64,000 nucleotides of DNA from Chloroflexota bacterium (GTDB taxonomy: Bacteria; Chloroflexota; Anaerolineae; Anaerolineales; Anaerolineaceae): positions 1 through 64,000 of the forward strand of contig JAJFTV010000071.1 in assembly GCA_021372725.1 (NCBI GenBank), given 5' to 3'. Position numbers and translations under genes: made by a program. The notes below the pieces were generated by a model. The model was not told the DNA's origin and made no database searches. It saw nothing but the letters and a program-made list of their open reading frames with translations. Shown here piece by piece: positions 14,002-18,088 of the stretch (position 1 is its first letter; the number at the start of each line of letters is the position of its first letter).

Positions 14002-14701
14002 ATGTTTATCAATCGTGTGTCCGAAGTGGCACTATTGGAGAAACGTTTTGCTTCCGGCAAAGCGGAGTTTTTGTTCTCTATGGCCGCTGGCGGGTTGGCA
14101 AAACTGAGCTTCTGGCGCGATTCTGCGAGAGCAACCGTTCGATTTTCTTTGTTGCTGACCTGGGCACGGAAATTTCCCTCAGAACCGCTCTATCCACGGC
14201 GGTCAATTCAATATTATTCGGGCCAAACCAAATGAATGCAGTTTACTTTTACCTGGGATGACCTTTTTCAGGCAGTTTTATCCTAACTTTGATGCGCAGG
14301 ATCAGGTGATGCCTGAAATCGACCACTTTACCAGCCTGGCTTTTGAGGAAATTTGCCAGCAATATTATTGGCAAGCTGGATTGACTGGTCAACTTGCGTT
14401 TGTTCCCGAGAACATCGACAAATGGTGGGCCGCCAATTAAAAGGTTGACCTGGTTGTTTTGGGTGAAACTGAAGCCGTTTTGGTGGAATGCAAATGGACG
14501 GACAAACCCGCCGGGATTGACCTATTGGTTGATCTGGAGCGGAAAGCTGATTTGATGAAACCTGACCTGGAGAGGCGGAGCATCCATTTTGCAATGTGCT
14601 CTCGATCCGGTTTTACCTCTCAATTGGAAGAAAACGCAAGACAGCGGAAGGATATAATATTACGGAATTTGCCCGATATCTTGGATCAGGCAAAACGATA
14701 A
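14002..14701 (+). pseudogene. Decayed AAA+ ATPase of the DUF234 (COG1672-like) type
   Basis: The first frame opens MFINRVSEVALLEKRF and GKAEF, as in these ATPases. A frameshift in a T-run near 14069 moves the P-loop (LYGRWRVGKTELL) into another frame, which runs on to about 14235. An internal deletion follows, since the full family is about 450 residues. A third frame from 14258 carries the C-terminal DUF234-like nuclease-fold part, with a nonsense TAA at 14438-14440 followed by KVDLVVLGETEAVLVECKW. The gene therefore has at least one frameshift, a large deletion and a stop. Such ATPases are often mobile or defence-associated, but the role of this one is lost. Confidence 0.8.
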
Positions 14702-14751: not shown

Positions 14752-15084
14752 TCACGCTGTGATGCTTTTCGAGAAAAAGCTCATCACAAAAACGCCGAGA
14801 AGGATCAATACCACACCGATGATCAATGGCAAATCGACTTTTTCGTGCAGCAGGTACAGGCTGATCAGCATCGTCCCGGCAGTACCCACTCCGGACCAGA
14901 TGGCATACGCCGGCCCGAGCGGAATACTTTTTAGAGCAATGGCGAACAGGTAGAACGAAATTCCATAGCCTGCAACAACAACCAGGCTGGGGACCAGCTT
15001 TGTAAAACCAACGGAATATTTTAACGCGGCAGTACCGATGACCTCAGTCAATATCGCAAGCAGCAGCAGAATCATGGGATGCAT
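14752..15084 (-). CDS. Small multidrug resistance (SMR) family exporter
   Basis: A 110-residue protein with four membrane helices of the EmrE/SugE family, which export cationic compounds or guanidinium in exchange for protons as a dimer. The essential membrane Glu14 is present in LLAILTEVIGT, and the GPAYAIWSGVG motif of helix 3 is clear. I chose ATG at 15084 because GAGG lies six bases upstream; the TTG at 15096 overlaps that site. The next gene upstream on this strand is distant, so this is a single-gene unit. The sequence does not separate drug from guanidinium transport. Confidence 0.9.
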   Translation of the reverse strand: MHPMILLLLAILTEVIGTAALKYSVGFTKLVPSLVVVAGYGISFYLFAIALKSIPLGPAYAIWSGVGTAGTMLISLYLLHEKVDLPLIIGVVLILLGVFVMSFFSKSITA

Positions 15085-15115
15085 TGTGAACCTCAAATCA
15101 ATTTTGATGCCCTAA

Positions 15116-15258: not shown

Positions 15259-15288
15259 TTGACAGGCCAGGCTCAATTATGGTATTCT
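15259..15288 (+). promoter_or_regulatory. Probable promoter of the ABC-F gene leader
   Basis: TTGACA (15259-15264), 18-base spacer, TATTCT (15283-15288). The start of transcription would be near 15295, giving a leader of about 280 bases. Confidence 0.6.
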
Positions 15289-15332
15289 TTGTTTCTGGCA
15301 GAAAATCCTGATTGGAAATAAGGAAAACCTGA

Positions 15333-15374
15333 ATGTTGATTCACAAGAATTACATCGCAAGTATTGGCGCCTGA
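15333..15374 (+). CDS. 13-residue leader peptide upstream of the ABC-F gene
   Basis: ATG at 15333 opens a short ORF encoding MLIHKNYIASIGA, ending in TGA at 15372. AAGGA lies eight bases upstream, an ideal ribosome site. Its position between a promoter and an intrinsic terminator is the pattern of antibiotic-sensing leader peptides that control resistance ABC-F genes by ribosome stalling. The role is inferred from layout; the peptide itself is not one I recognise. Confidence 0.55.
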   Translation: MLIHKNYIASIGA

Positions 15375-15453
15375 GCGGCCCGGCGGATTATTTCTTGATG
15401 TACAGGATGGTTTAGCCATTTAATTCCCTTTTATAAAAACAATCCAATAACCC

Positions 15454-15482
15454 CTGCAGGCAGCTTTCGGCCTGCAGTTTTT
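15454..15482 (+). terminator. Intrinsic terminator in the ABC-F leader
   Basis: CTGCAGGC (15454-15461) pairs perfectly with GCCTGCAG (15470-15477) and is followed by five T residues. It lies 95 bases before the ABC-F start. GCCTGAG at 15369-15375, overlapping the leader-peptide stop, could pair with the left arm as an antiterminator. Confidence 0.75.
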
Positions 15483-15576
15483 GATCTTAAGGTCATCTTC
15501 CAGGGCGCCACGTTCTGGCAGAATTTATAAGCCGTTTCAGCAACAAATTATGCAATAATGATAAGGAGAATTCAAT

Positions 15577-17202
15577 ATGCTTCAGGCAAATCAAATCAGC
15601 AAAACCTATGGCACCCAGACCGTACTGGATGGCGTCAGCTTCAACCTGAATGCCGGTGAAAGAATAGGGCTGGTGGGAGCGAACGGCGGCGGGAAAACCA
15701 CGTTGCTGCGCATCCTCTGCGGCGAAGAAAAGCCCGATACCGGTATGGTGACTGTCTCCCCCGCTGATACTTTGGGGTACCTGCCTCAGGGCATTCAAGT
15801 TACCCCGCAGTTGACCGTCGAAGAATATGTTCTCTCCGGTATGGCGGGTTACCTGGAAACGCGGCGGGGGATGGAACAGGCGCTGAAAGCTCTGGAGTGG
15901 GCGCCTGAAAACCCTGATTCTTTACAATTATTTGGCGAGATGTTGACCCGCTTTGAGGGGTTTGGCGGGTACGATCTGGAGCCGCGTGTACAGGCTATAT
16001 TGGCCGGATTGGGGATCGGCGGGCTTGACCCGCACGGCAGCCTGGCTCCGCTCAGCGGCGGTGAGCTGACCCGTCTCAGTCTGGCACGGCTGCTGCTGGC
16101 CCAACCGTCCATCCTCATTCTGGACGAACCCACCAATCATCTTGATATCGAGGCGATGGAATGGCTGGAAGTTTTTTTGCAGACTTATCGTGGAGCCGTG
16201 CTGGTGGTTTCGCATGATCGTGTTTTTCTGGATCACATCGTGGAGCGGATTCTGGAACTGGATGATATCAACCACCAGATCAAACCCTATCCTGGCAATT
16301 ACACCGCTTATGCAGCCGCAAAGGAAGCGGAACGTAAAAAGCTGCTGGCAACGTGGAAGGATCAGCAGATTGAAATTCGTAAACTGGAAGAAGATGTGCA
16401 GCGCACCAAACAACAGGCTATCAGCACGGAGAGAGGTACAAACAATGATTTTCAACGTCGTCTTGCAAAGAAGGTAGCCAAAAAAGCTCTGGCGAAAGAA
16501 AAGCGTTTGCAGCGTTATCTGGAGGATGAAGAGCGGGTTGAAAAGCCGACCACCCTGGCGCATATCCGCCTTGATTTTGGAAACCCCATGCGCAGCGGAC
16601 AGAGGGTGGCCGACCTGGAAGGCCTGGGGGTAAAGCGGGGCGGTCGCTGGTTGTTCAGGGATACGGATCTGTCACTGCAGTATGGTGACCGGGTGGCGCT
16701 GGTGGGGCCGAACGGGAGCGGCAAAACCACTCTGCTGCGTCTGCTACTGGGGATAGAAACCCCCGACGAGGGAAAGATCAGCATTGGAAAAAGCGTCAGG
16801 CTGGGATACATGCCCCAGCAGCAGGAGACACTCGATCCTGCCGCCATGGCGCTGGATGTCATCCGTTCACTGGCTCCCATGAGCATCAGTGAGGCGCATC
16901 ATTTTCTGCATTATTTCCTGTTCGATGCCGATGAAGCGCGCCGCGAAACCCGTTTGCTCAGCTACGGGCAGCGGGCCCGGCTGTTGCTGGCGCGCCTGGT
17001 GGTCAGTGGCGCAAACTGCCTGCTGCTGGATGAGCCGGTTAATCATCTGGACATCCCCTCGCGCCAGCAGTTTGAAGAGGCACTGGAGGCTTTCCCCGGG
17101 ACGGTGTTGATCTCACTGCATGACCGCGCCTTTATCCAAAATTTTGCAAATCAAATCTGGCGCATCCGCGATGGAAGAATCGAACGAGTATATGAACTCT
17201 GA
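15577..17202 (+). CDS. ABC-F family ATPase (ribosome-acting, possible antibiotic resistance)
   Basis: 541 residues with two ABC cassettes in one chain and no membrane segment, the ABC-F layout. Cassette 1 has GANGGGKTTLL (about 34), LSGGELTRLSLARLLL and DEPTNHLD; cassette 2 has GPNGSGKTTLL (about 378), LSYGQRARLLLARLVV and DEPVNHLD. A charged helical linker at about 245-325 would reach into the ribosomal E site. ABC-F proteins either tune translation or dislodge ribosome-targeting antibiotics; the short C-terminus and the attenuator-like leader favour the resistance type. AAGGAG precedes the ATG by seven bases. In cassette 2 the signature SGG is replaced by SYG, as is frequent in ABC-F. Confidence 0.9.
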   Translation: MLQANQISKTYGTQTVLDGVSFNLNAGERIGLVGANGGGKTTLLRILCGEEKPDTGMVTVSPADTLGYLPQGIQVTPQLTVEEYVLSGMAGYLETRRGMEQALKALEWAPENPDSLQLFGEMLTRFEGFGGYDLEPRVQAILAGLGIGGLDPHGSLAPLSGGELTRLSLARLLLAQPSILILDEPTNHLDIEAMEWLEVFLQTYRGAVLVVSHDRVFLDHIVERILELDDINHQIKPYPGNYTAYAAAKEAERKKLLATWKDQQIEIRKLEEDVQRTKQQAISTERGTNNDFQRRLAKKVAKKALAKEKRLQRYLEDEERVEKPTTLAHIRLDFGNPMRSGQRVADLEGLGVKRGGRWLFRDTDLSLQYGDRVALVGPNGSGKTTLLRLLLGIETPDEGKISIGKSVRLGYMPQQQETLDPAAMALDVIRSLAPMSISEAHHFLHYFLFDADEARRETRLLSYGQRARLLLARLVVSGANCLLLDEPVNHLDIPSRQQFEEALEAFPGTVLISLHDRAFIQNFANQIWRIRDGRIERVYEL

Positions 17203-17345: not shown

Positions 17346-17615
17346 ATGAATCTGATCCGTGTTCAGATCATGCTGGAGCCGCGCCAACATAAAGCCTTGA
17401 AAAAAGCTGCCCATCGTTCCAATAAAAGCGTCTCTCAACTGCTGCGCGACATTACCAATATCTACCTGGCCGAGATGTTCCCCGAAGATGATGAAGTGCT
17501 TCAAACACTGCATACCATTAAGTCGATCCGCGAGAGGCAACCTGAGGTCTCCGATGGTATTTTCCCCGATCCTTACATAGGTGAACCCGATGACAGCGGA
17601 GATACCGGAAAATGA
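17346..17615 (+). CDS. Ribbon-helix-helix-like antitoxin
   Basis: 89 residues. The N-terminus (IRVQIMLEPRQHKALKKAAHRSNKSVSQLLRD) reads as a beta strand followed by two helices, the ribbon-helix-helix DNA-binding fold of VapB/CopG-type antitoxins. The acidic C-terminal tail (PYIGEPDDSGDTG) would be the toxin-binding part. Its stop overlaps the start of the PIN-domain gene by four bases (ATGA), indicating translational coupling. It probably represses its own operon through the TGTGTATA sites upstream. Confidence 0.7.
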   Translation: MNLIRVQIMLEPRQHKALKKAAHRSNKSVSQLLRDITNIYLAEMFPEDDEVLQTLHTIKSIRERQPEVSDGIFPDPYIGEPDDSGDTGK

Positions 17616-18088
17616 ACATTGTTGTTGATGCCAGTCTGACAGGTGCCTTGTTTGTGCGCATGCCCTGGTCGGCTTTTGTGGAAAGACAGTTCCGCACCTG
17701 GCGGCTGAATGGCGATCAGATGTTCGTGCCGTCCGTCTGGTTGGCAGAAGTGACGTCCATCCTCCGAAAAGCTGCAACTTCGGGCAGGATCAAGGAAGAG
17801 GATGCGCGTGTCATTTTAACCATGTTGCCCAATTTGCATATTCAAATCATCTCGCCGAACCCGGCCTTGCTGGATGCGGCATTCATTATGGCCGGCAGGC
17901 TGGGGATCACAGATGTCTATGCAGTCCAATATCTTGCACTGGCAGAGCATCTGCATGCCGAATTCTGGACCGTGAACCACAAACTATACGAAACCCTAAA
18001 AGAATTTCATTTTGACTGGATTAAATTCTTTCCAACCTCGAACACTGCAACGGAATCCAGATCAGGCATTGAATACGACAAAATTTGA
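17612..18088 (+). CDS. PIN-domain protein, VapC-like toxin
   Basis: 158 residues with a PIN-domain layout: Asp6 in MNIVVDAS, Glu46 in WLAEVTSIL, and Asp near 103 in GITDVYAVQYLALAE. PIN toxins are magnesium-dependent RNases, typically cutting tRNA or rRNA. The fourth acidic position, usually Asp in a T-x-D motif, appears as Asn in WTVNHKL, so activity may be reduced or use a substituted ligand. Overlap with the antitoxin gene and a shared operator support a toxin-antitoxin module. The last 15 residues after FFPTSN look like a variable extension. Confidence 0.7.
   Translation: MNIVVDASLTGALFVRMPWSAFVERQFRTWRLNGDQMFVPSVWLAEVTSILRKAATSGRIKEEDARVILTMLPNLHIQIISPNPALLDAAFIMAGRLGITDVYAVQYLALAEHLHAEFWTVNHKLYETLKEFHFDWIKFFPTSNTATESRSGIEYDKI

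Follow-up and report, generated by a model that had tools for sequence, protein, structure and literature searches.

A predicted ribosome-mediated transcription attenuator in the leader of a Chloroflexota ABC-F gene

Described attenuators of resistance ABC-F genes

Attenuators that control resistance genes of the ABC-F type have been described in Bacillota and Actinomycetota. The vmlR leader of Bacillus subtilis presents, in order, an upstream leader ORF (uORF), an anti-antiterminator, an antiterminator and an intrinsic terminator, followed by an ARE ABC-F gene, and stalling on the uORF leads to read-through of the terminator (PMC9226507). The cplR leader of Clostridioides difficile combines a short uORF (MR[I/M]) with a terminator, and joins transcription attenuation to translation attenuation through an anti-SD element (PMC10201436). 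In the msrDL/msrD system, a leader peptide and an intrinsic terminator precede the ABC-F gene, and the stalled ribosome stops termination (PMC10314930). A literature search covering part of the literature found no description of attenuators of resistance ABC-F genes in Chloroflexota, and the family-wide pattern reported below appears to be undescribed in the part that was covered.

Here, we analyse a stretch of 64,000 nucleotides from a Chloroflexota bacterium (the window), in which the leader at positions 15259-15576 of the forward strand probably constitutes a ribosome-mediated transcription attenuator of the ABC-F gene that follows. The proposed arrangement resembles vmlR in the order of its elements, in the ARE ABC-F gene (here a probable one) at their end, and in that a stall on the uORF would give read-through. 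The vmlR uORF has only three codons (MIN), whereas that of the window has 13, and the separate SD-masking hairpin and the NusG pausing of vmlR are counted as further differences. A short uORF and a terminator are also the common ground with cplR, but the cplR uORF encodes MR[I/M]; in a sister clade of the Chloroflexota genes the uORF itself complements the SD, and in the window SD masking is at chance level. The order of leader peptide, intrinsic terminator and ABC-F gene is shared with msrDL/msrD, where, in contrast, stalling requires the peptide MYLIFM and the terminator is blocked directly by the ribosome, while the window terminator lies 79 nt beyond the uORF stop.

The ABC-F gene and its neighbours

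The gene at 15577-17202 (forward strand) encodes an ABC-F ATPase of 541 aa with two ATP-binding domains, recognized by Pfam as two copies of ABC_tran and one of ABC_tran_Xtn. The protein scores 429.5 bits against NF000355, the NCBIfam ribosomal-protection-like model (cut-off 380), and thus combines two linked ABC domains with a ribosome-protection profile above its cut-off, as looked for in an ARE ABC-F. Because a Uup/EttA-like paralog in the same genome, for which EttA is the next best model, also passes NF000355 (411 bits), that model is not diagnostic and the family name is no proof of resistance; a role of the window protein in antibiotic resistance is likely. The next best named NCBIfam model is NF000171 (ARE4: TlrC, CarA, OleB and SrmB), a family reported from Actinobacteria and Chloroflexi (PMC6723617). 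ARE4 is therefore the nearest named resistance family by NCBIfam bits and has been reported in the same phylum, but at 365 bits the window protein lies far below the family cut-off of 800 and is not a member.

At 17346-18088, a pair of short overlapping ORFs (89 and 158 aa) has the appearance of an antitoxin with a PIN-type toxin and matches no Pfam or NCBIfam model; ORF pieces at 14003-14701 resemble a decayed ATPase gene.

Anatomy of the leader

The leader opens with a promoter-like site on the forward strand (15259-15288), with TTGACA at 15259-15264, a spacer of 18 nt, a TG before the -10, and TATTCT at 15283-15288. As a bare consensus match (10/12) the site is not unusual, 9 such sites being found where 7.7 are expected; TTGACA promoters also stand upstream of the uORFs of relatives, and a promoter here is plausible, though no better than many chance matches. 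Downstream of it lies a predicted translatable uORF of 13 codons, MLIHKNYIASIGA* (15333-15374; ATG TTG ATT CAC AAG AAT TAC ATC GCA AGT ATT GGC GCC TGA), preceded by the ribosome-binding site TAAGGA (15319-15324). In 3000 shuffles of this stretch, 0.8% yield a uORF of 10 codons or more that also has a 6-base SD match; relatives carry uORFs in the same place.

The intrinsic terminator, CTGCAGGC-AGCTTTCG-GCCTGCAG-TTTTT (15454-15482), has an 8-bp stem (15454-15477) whose hairpin folds at -15.4 kcal/mol (z -3.2, 0/200 shuffles). An equally good terminator appears in 2% of leader shuffles, so that uORF and terminator are each found in less than 3% of shuffles. The ABC-F ribosome-binding site TAAGGAG follows at 15562-15568. 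Since the upstream gene, a small multidrug resistance (SMR) transporter (14752-15096), lies on the opposite strand and diverges from ABC-F, the terminator between uORF and ABC-F is not that gene's own, and promoter, uORF and terminator belong to the ABC-F transcript. All of the elements that the original prediction had placed here were recovered at their positions, from the promoter to the ABC-F start at 15577, including the GCCTGAG at 15369-15375 and the two copies of GGCGCC (15366-15371 and 15504-15509); we found no role for the recurrence of GGCGCC, which is its own reverse complement. Rfam gave no family at gathering score across the whole window, and for the leader alone no family at E values up to 1.

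Two minor observations concern this region. The SMR transporter is of the EmrE/Qac type, and a second hairpin (15500-15530) lies between the terminator and the ABC-F start, with z -1.8 for 15485-15540.

Recurrence of the architecture among relatives

Orthologs of the ABC-F protein at about 39-54% identity are widespread in the class Anaerolineae and also occur outside it. The highest-identity relative found (58%, over the C-terminal half) comes from a named Anaerolineaceae MAG, which fits the Chloroflexota-type host that had been guessed from the sequence. The closest hits in other families raised the possibility that the gene was gained horizontally, but the tree does not favour this: the window protein clusters there with relatives from its own family, L077 and the genus g15 (support 100/98). 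A search of viral contigs gave no relative.

None of 147 genomes of the family contains a close copy of the exact window leader, and the search for copies elsewhere in the genome or family returned only a 28-base match (E 9e-4); this absence of a sequence relative counts against the attenuator. In L077 and most of g15 a GNAT gene lies ahead of ABC-F and the leader ahead of the GNAT gene, again as TTGACA promoter, uORF and terminator; the g15 uORF starts at about the expected transcription start, judged from the position of the -10, and the L077 uORF reads as 33 codons followed by two terminators. The order of promoter, uORF and terminator, before ABC-F or a GNAT-ABC-F operon, recurs across the phylum, the nearest relatives of the window gene included. 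A GNAT acetyltransferase of about 340 aa was also seen upstream of ABC-F in L079, L107, L186 and their relatives, L107 having a HAD-like gene as well.

Paralogs were compared in the large sister clade (clade B), which belongs to the Anaerolineales. A terminator lies within 200 nt of 77% of 102 clade B orthologs, compared to 15% of 26 Uup-type paralogs and 4-8% of shuffles, and a terminator together with a 4-8 codon uORF with SD is found in 65% of the orthologs, 0/26 paralogs and 0% of shuffles. Taking these counts with the subgroup of the window gene, the architecture is conserved before orthologs and absent before paralogs. The attenuator was to be abandoned if relatives lacked the short ORF or the terminator; both recur, and the proposal survives.

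Long-uORF leaders and the proposed switch

Leaders of the form seen in the window, with a long uORF and a terminator, were found at thirteen further loci (L028, L108, L185, L188, L191, L192, L198, L200, L202, L210, L233, L256 and L261). The uORF end of L028, TTCGCACCC, complements GGGTGCGAA of its terminator; in L233 and relatives GCGCCTGC pairs with GCAGGCGC, L242 retaining the pairing through wobble; and in g15 GGATTGC pairs with GCAATCC. Cognate pairing of the uORF 3' end with the terminator 5' arm is better than permuted or swapped pairing (P 0.0004-0.002, 17-27 long-uORF leaders), values that are indicative only, because the leaders were picked manually and relatives are among them.

When the nascent RNA is folded as far as the loop of the terminator, with a ribosome footprint placed on the uORF, upstream pairing of the arm is 0.65 for a ribosome at the AUG versus 0.43 at the stop; over 16 relatives this difference exceeds that of shuffles (P 0.0026). 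For L028 this pairing is 0.00 when the leader is free of ribosomes, 0.70 with a ribosome at codon 5 and 0.01 at the stop. The dependence on a ribosome at the start versus the stop of the uORF is the logic of vmlR (PMC9226507).

Comparison with relatives gives good support to a ribosome-mediated attenuator of the window ABC-F gene that would act mainly on transcription. Termination, stalling, an inducing drug and resistance are what we infer for the window system, as follows. Transcription would start near 15295. When no drug is present, ribosomes would translate the uORF to its stop and cover GGCGCCTGAG, its last codons and stop (15366-15375), blocking the pairing of this segment with the terminator 5' arm; the terminator would then form, and most transcripts would end near 15482. 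A drug that stalls ribosomes early on the uORF would leave GGCGCCTGAG free for the emerging terminator 5' arm. The resulting antitermination would allow polymerase to continue into the ABC-F gene, whose product would relieve the stalled ribosomes.

A stalling peptide was considered as a further element. The motif x-A-S-[LIV] recurs near the C-terminus of several uORFs (GRMASL, GRIASV, GGASL; YIASI in the window). An RNA element, GCATCCCTG, which could pair with the start of the uORF, overlaps this motif in L188, L200 and L210 and is located past the uORF stop in L209. Because of this overlap, and of the element beyond the stop in L209, a stalling peptide cannot be claimed.

Switching helices in the window

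The candidate antiterminator strand GGCGCCTGAG can pair with CTGCAGGCAGC of the window terminator, at the position of the antiterminator of relatives. The duplex between the end of the uORF and the 5' arm of the terminator has a nominal P of 0.036 when the search is confined to the uORF end, while a search of the whole leader gives a duplex no stronger than in shuffles (fractions 0.457 and 0.113). The pairing of GCCTGAG with the terminator arm in the original prediction is thus borne out in its location, the site of a supported antiterminator in relatives, and is marginal in the window itself. In nascent folds of the window, codon 5 minus stop is 0.26 (P 0.03), and a stall at the AUG has no effect (P 0.37). 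Neither of the two nominal P values would survive correction, since several tests were made, and apart from them the switching helices of the window are inseparable from chance. Of the 27 terminator arms, 23 bind the window uORF end better than the window's own arm does, so that this end shows no specificity for its own arm, and the window terminator lies 79 nt past the uORF stop, a longer distance than in the long-uORF relatives (19-57 nt). A candidate anti-antiterminator hairpin around the second half of the uORF (15342-15401, predicted fold) is weak (z -0.52 when 15340-15406 is compared with shuffles). At equilibrium the terminator predominates in folds of the complete leader, whatever the state (P at least 0.97), and a switch would therefore have to be kinetic.

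Perhaps the terminator is simply a fixed partial stop, or the source of a short RNA, with an incidental uORF and a gene held at a low constant level. The weak switching helices and the unconserved leader sequence of the window speak for such an arrangement, but it is difficult to reconcile with a uORF-terminator order that stands far above paralogs and shuffles in relatives, or with the cognate pairing tests there, and we consider it unlikely. A transcription attenuator with a ribosome-controlled terminator remains the preferred reading.

Clade B leaders and control of translation

The uORF of clade B is complementary to the ABC-F ribosome site. Among 46 representatives of less than 70% identity, cognate pairs reach -15.1 kcal/mol versus -10.0 for non-cognate pairs, with 0/10,000 permutations as low, and compensating changes are seen between L064 (cagcaacctgt/acaggttgctg) and L016 (cagtaacctgt/acaggttactg). 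The encoded peptide often starts with MTD, from varied codons (ACA, ACG, ACC, ACT; GAC, GAT), and ends in L in 51/72 cases. A generic antiterminator, sought by duplex energy, is not above shuffles in clade B (mean z -0.17).

Could the window leader act in translation alone, its uORF region masking the ABC-F ribosome site and start codon until stalling unmasks them, with the terminator secondary? The clade B complementarity lends this some credit, and in the window fold the region where the uORF starts does pair with that of the ABC-F start. Against it, the pairing of the window uORF with the ABC-F SD equals that of shuffles (z +0.1; fraction 0.44), and the terminator sits between the two arms; with 13 codons, the window uORF is also not of the clade B type (MTDxL, a 4-8 codon uORF complementary to the SD). 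Purely translational control is thus improbable here. Of the "translational attenuator" originally proposed, the attenuator is upheld, and the evidence points to termination as the step under control.

A strict clade B uORF pattern has 12 matches in 301 genomes (reversed pattern, 0), ten of which precede listed ABC-F orthologs, by position. In one of the others (L297:1280-1530), a uORF MTDIL and the same kind of terminator are followed by a gene with AadA_C and nucleotidyltransferase domains, in two AadA/ANT-like nucleotidyltransferase regions; its best NCBIfam match is ANT(9), below cut-off. Here, another gene of resistance type has apparently acquired the clade B leader.

This module before an AadA/ANT(9)-like gene bears on the nature of the signal. 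The leader might respond to a cue other than a drug, such as amino-acid shortage or cold slowing translation, with ABC-F as a general rescue factor, and the passing of NF000355 by the Uup/EttA-like paralog would suit such a function. The L297 gene speaks against it, as do the recurring GNAT partners and a uORF without a single-codon run that would point to an amino acid; we leave it only a slim chance, and favour a drug as the inducer.

Taken across the phylum, there is an even chance that Chloroflexota carry drug-sensing attenuators in two forms, one in which the last codons of a long uORF provide the antiterminator and one in which a 4-8 codon uORF provides the anti-SD with the terminator between, the module having also been taken by the AadA/ANT-like gene and the window being a diverged member of the first form. 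Conserved ABC-F attenuators in these mostly uncultured bacteria would suggest that ribosome-targeting compounds reach them and are sensed, with the leaders as potential ready-made sensors for identifying such compounds. The sister-clade uORF acting as anti-SD is a simple design, testable by reporter. The remaining match to the strict pattern (L298:1400-1540) is an orphan, a clade B leader that no ABC-F gene follows.
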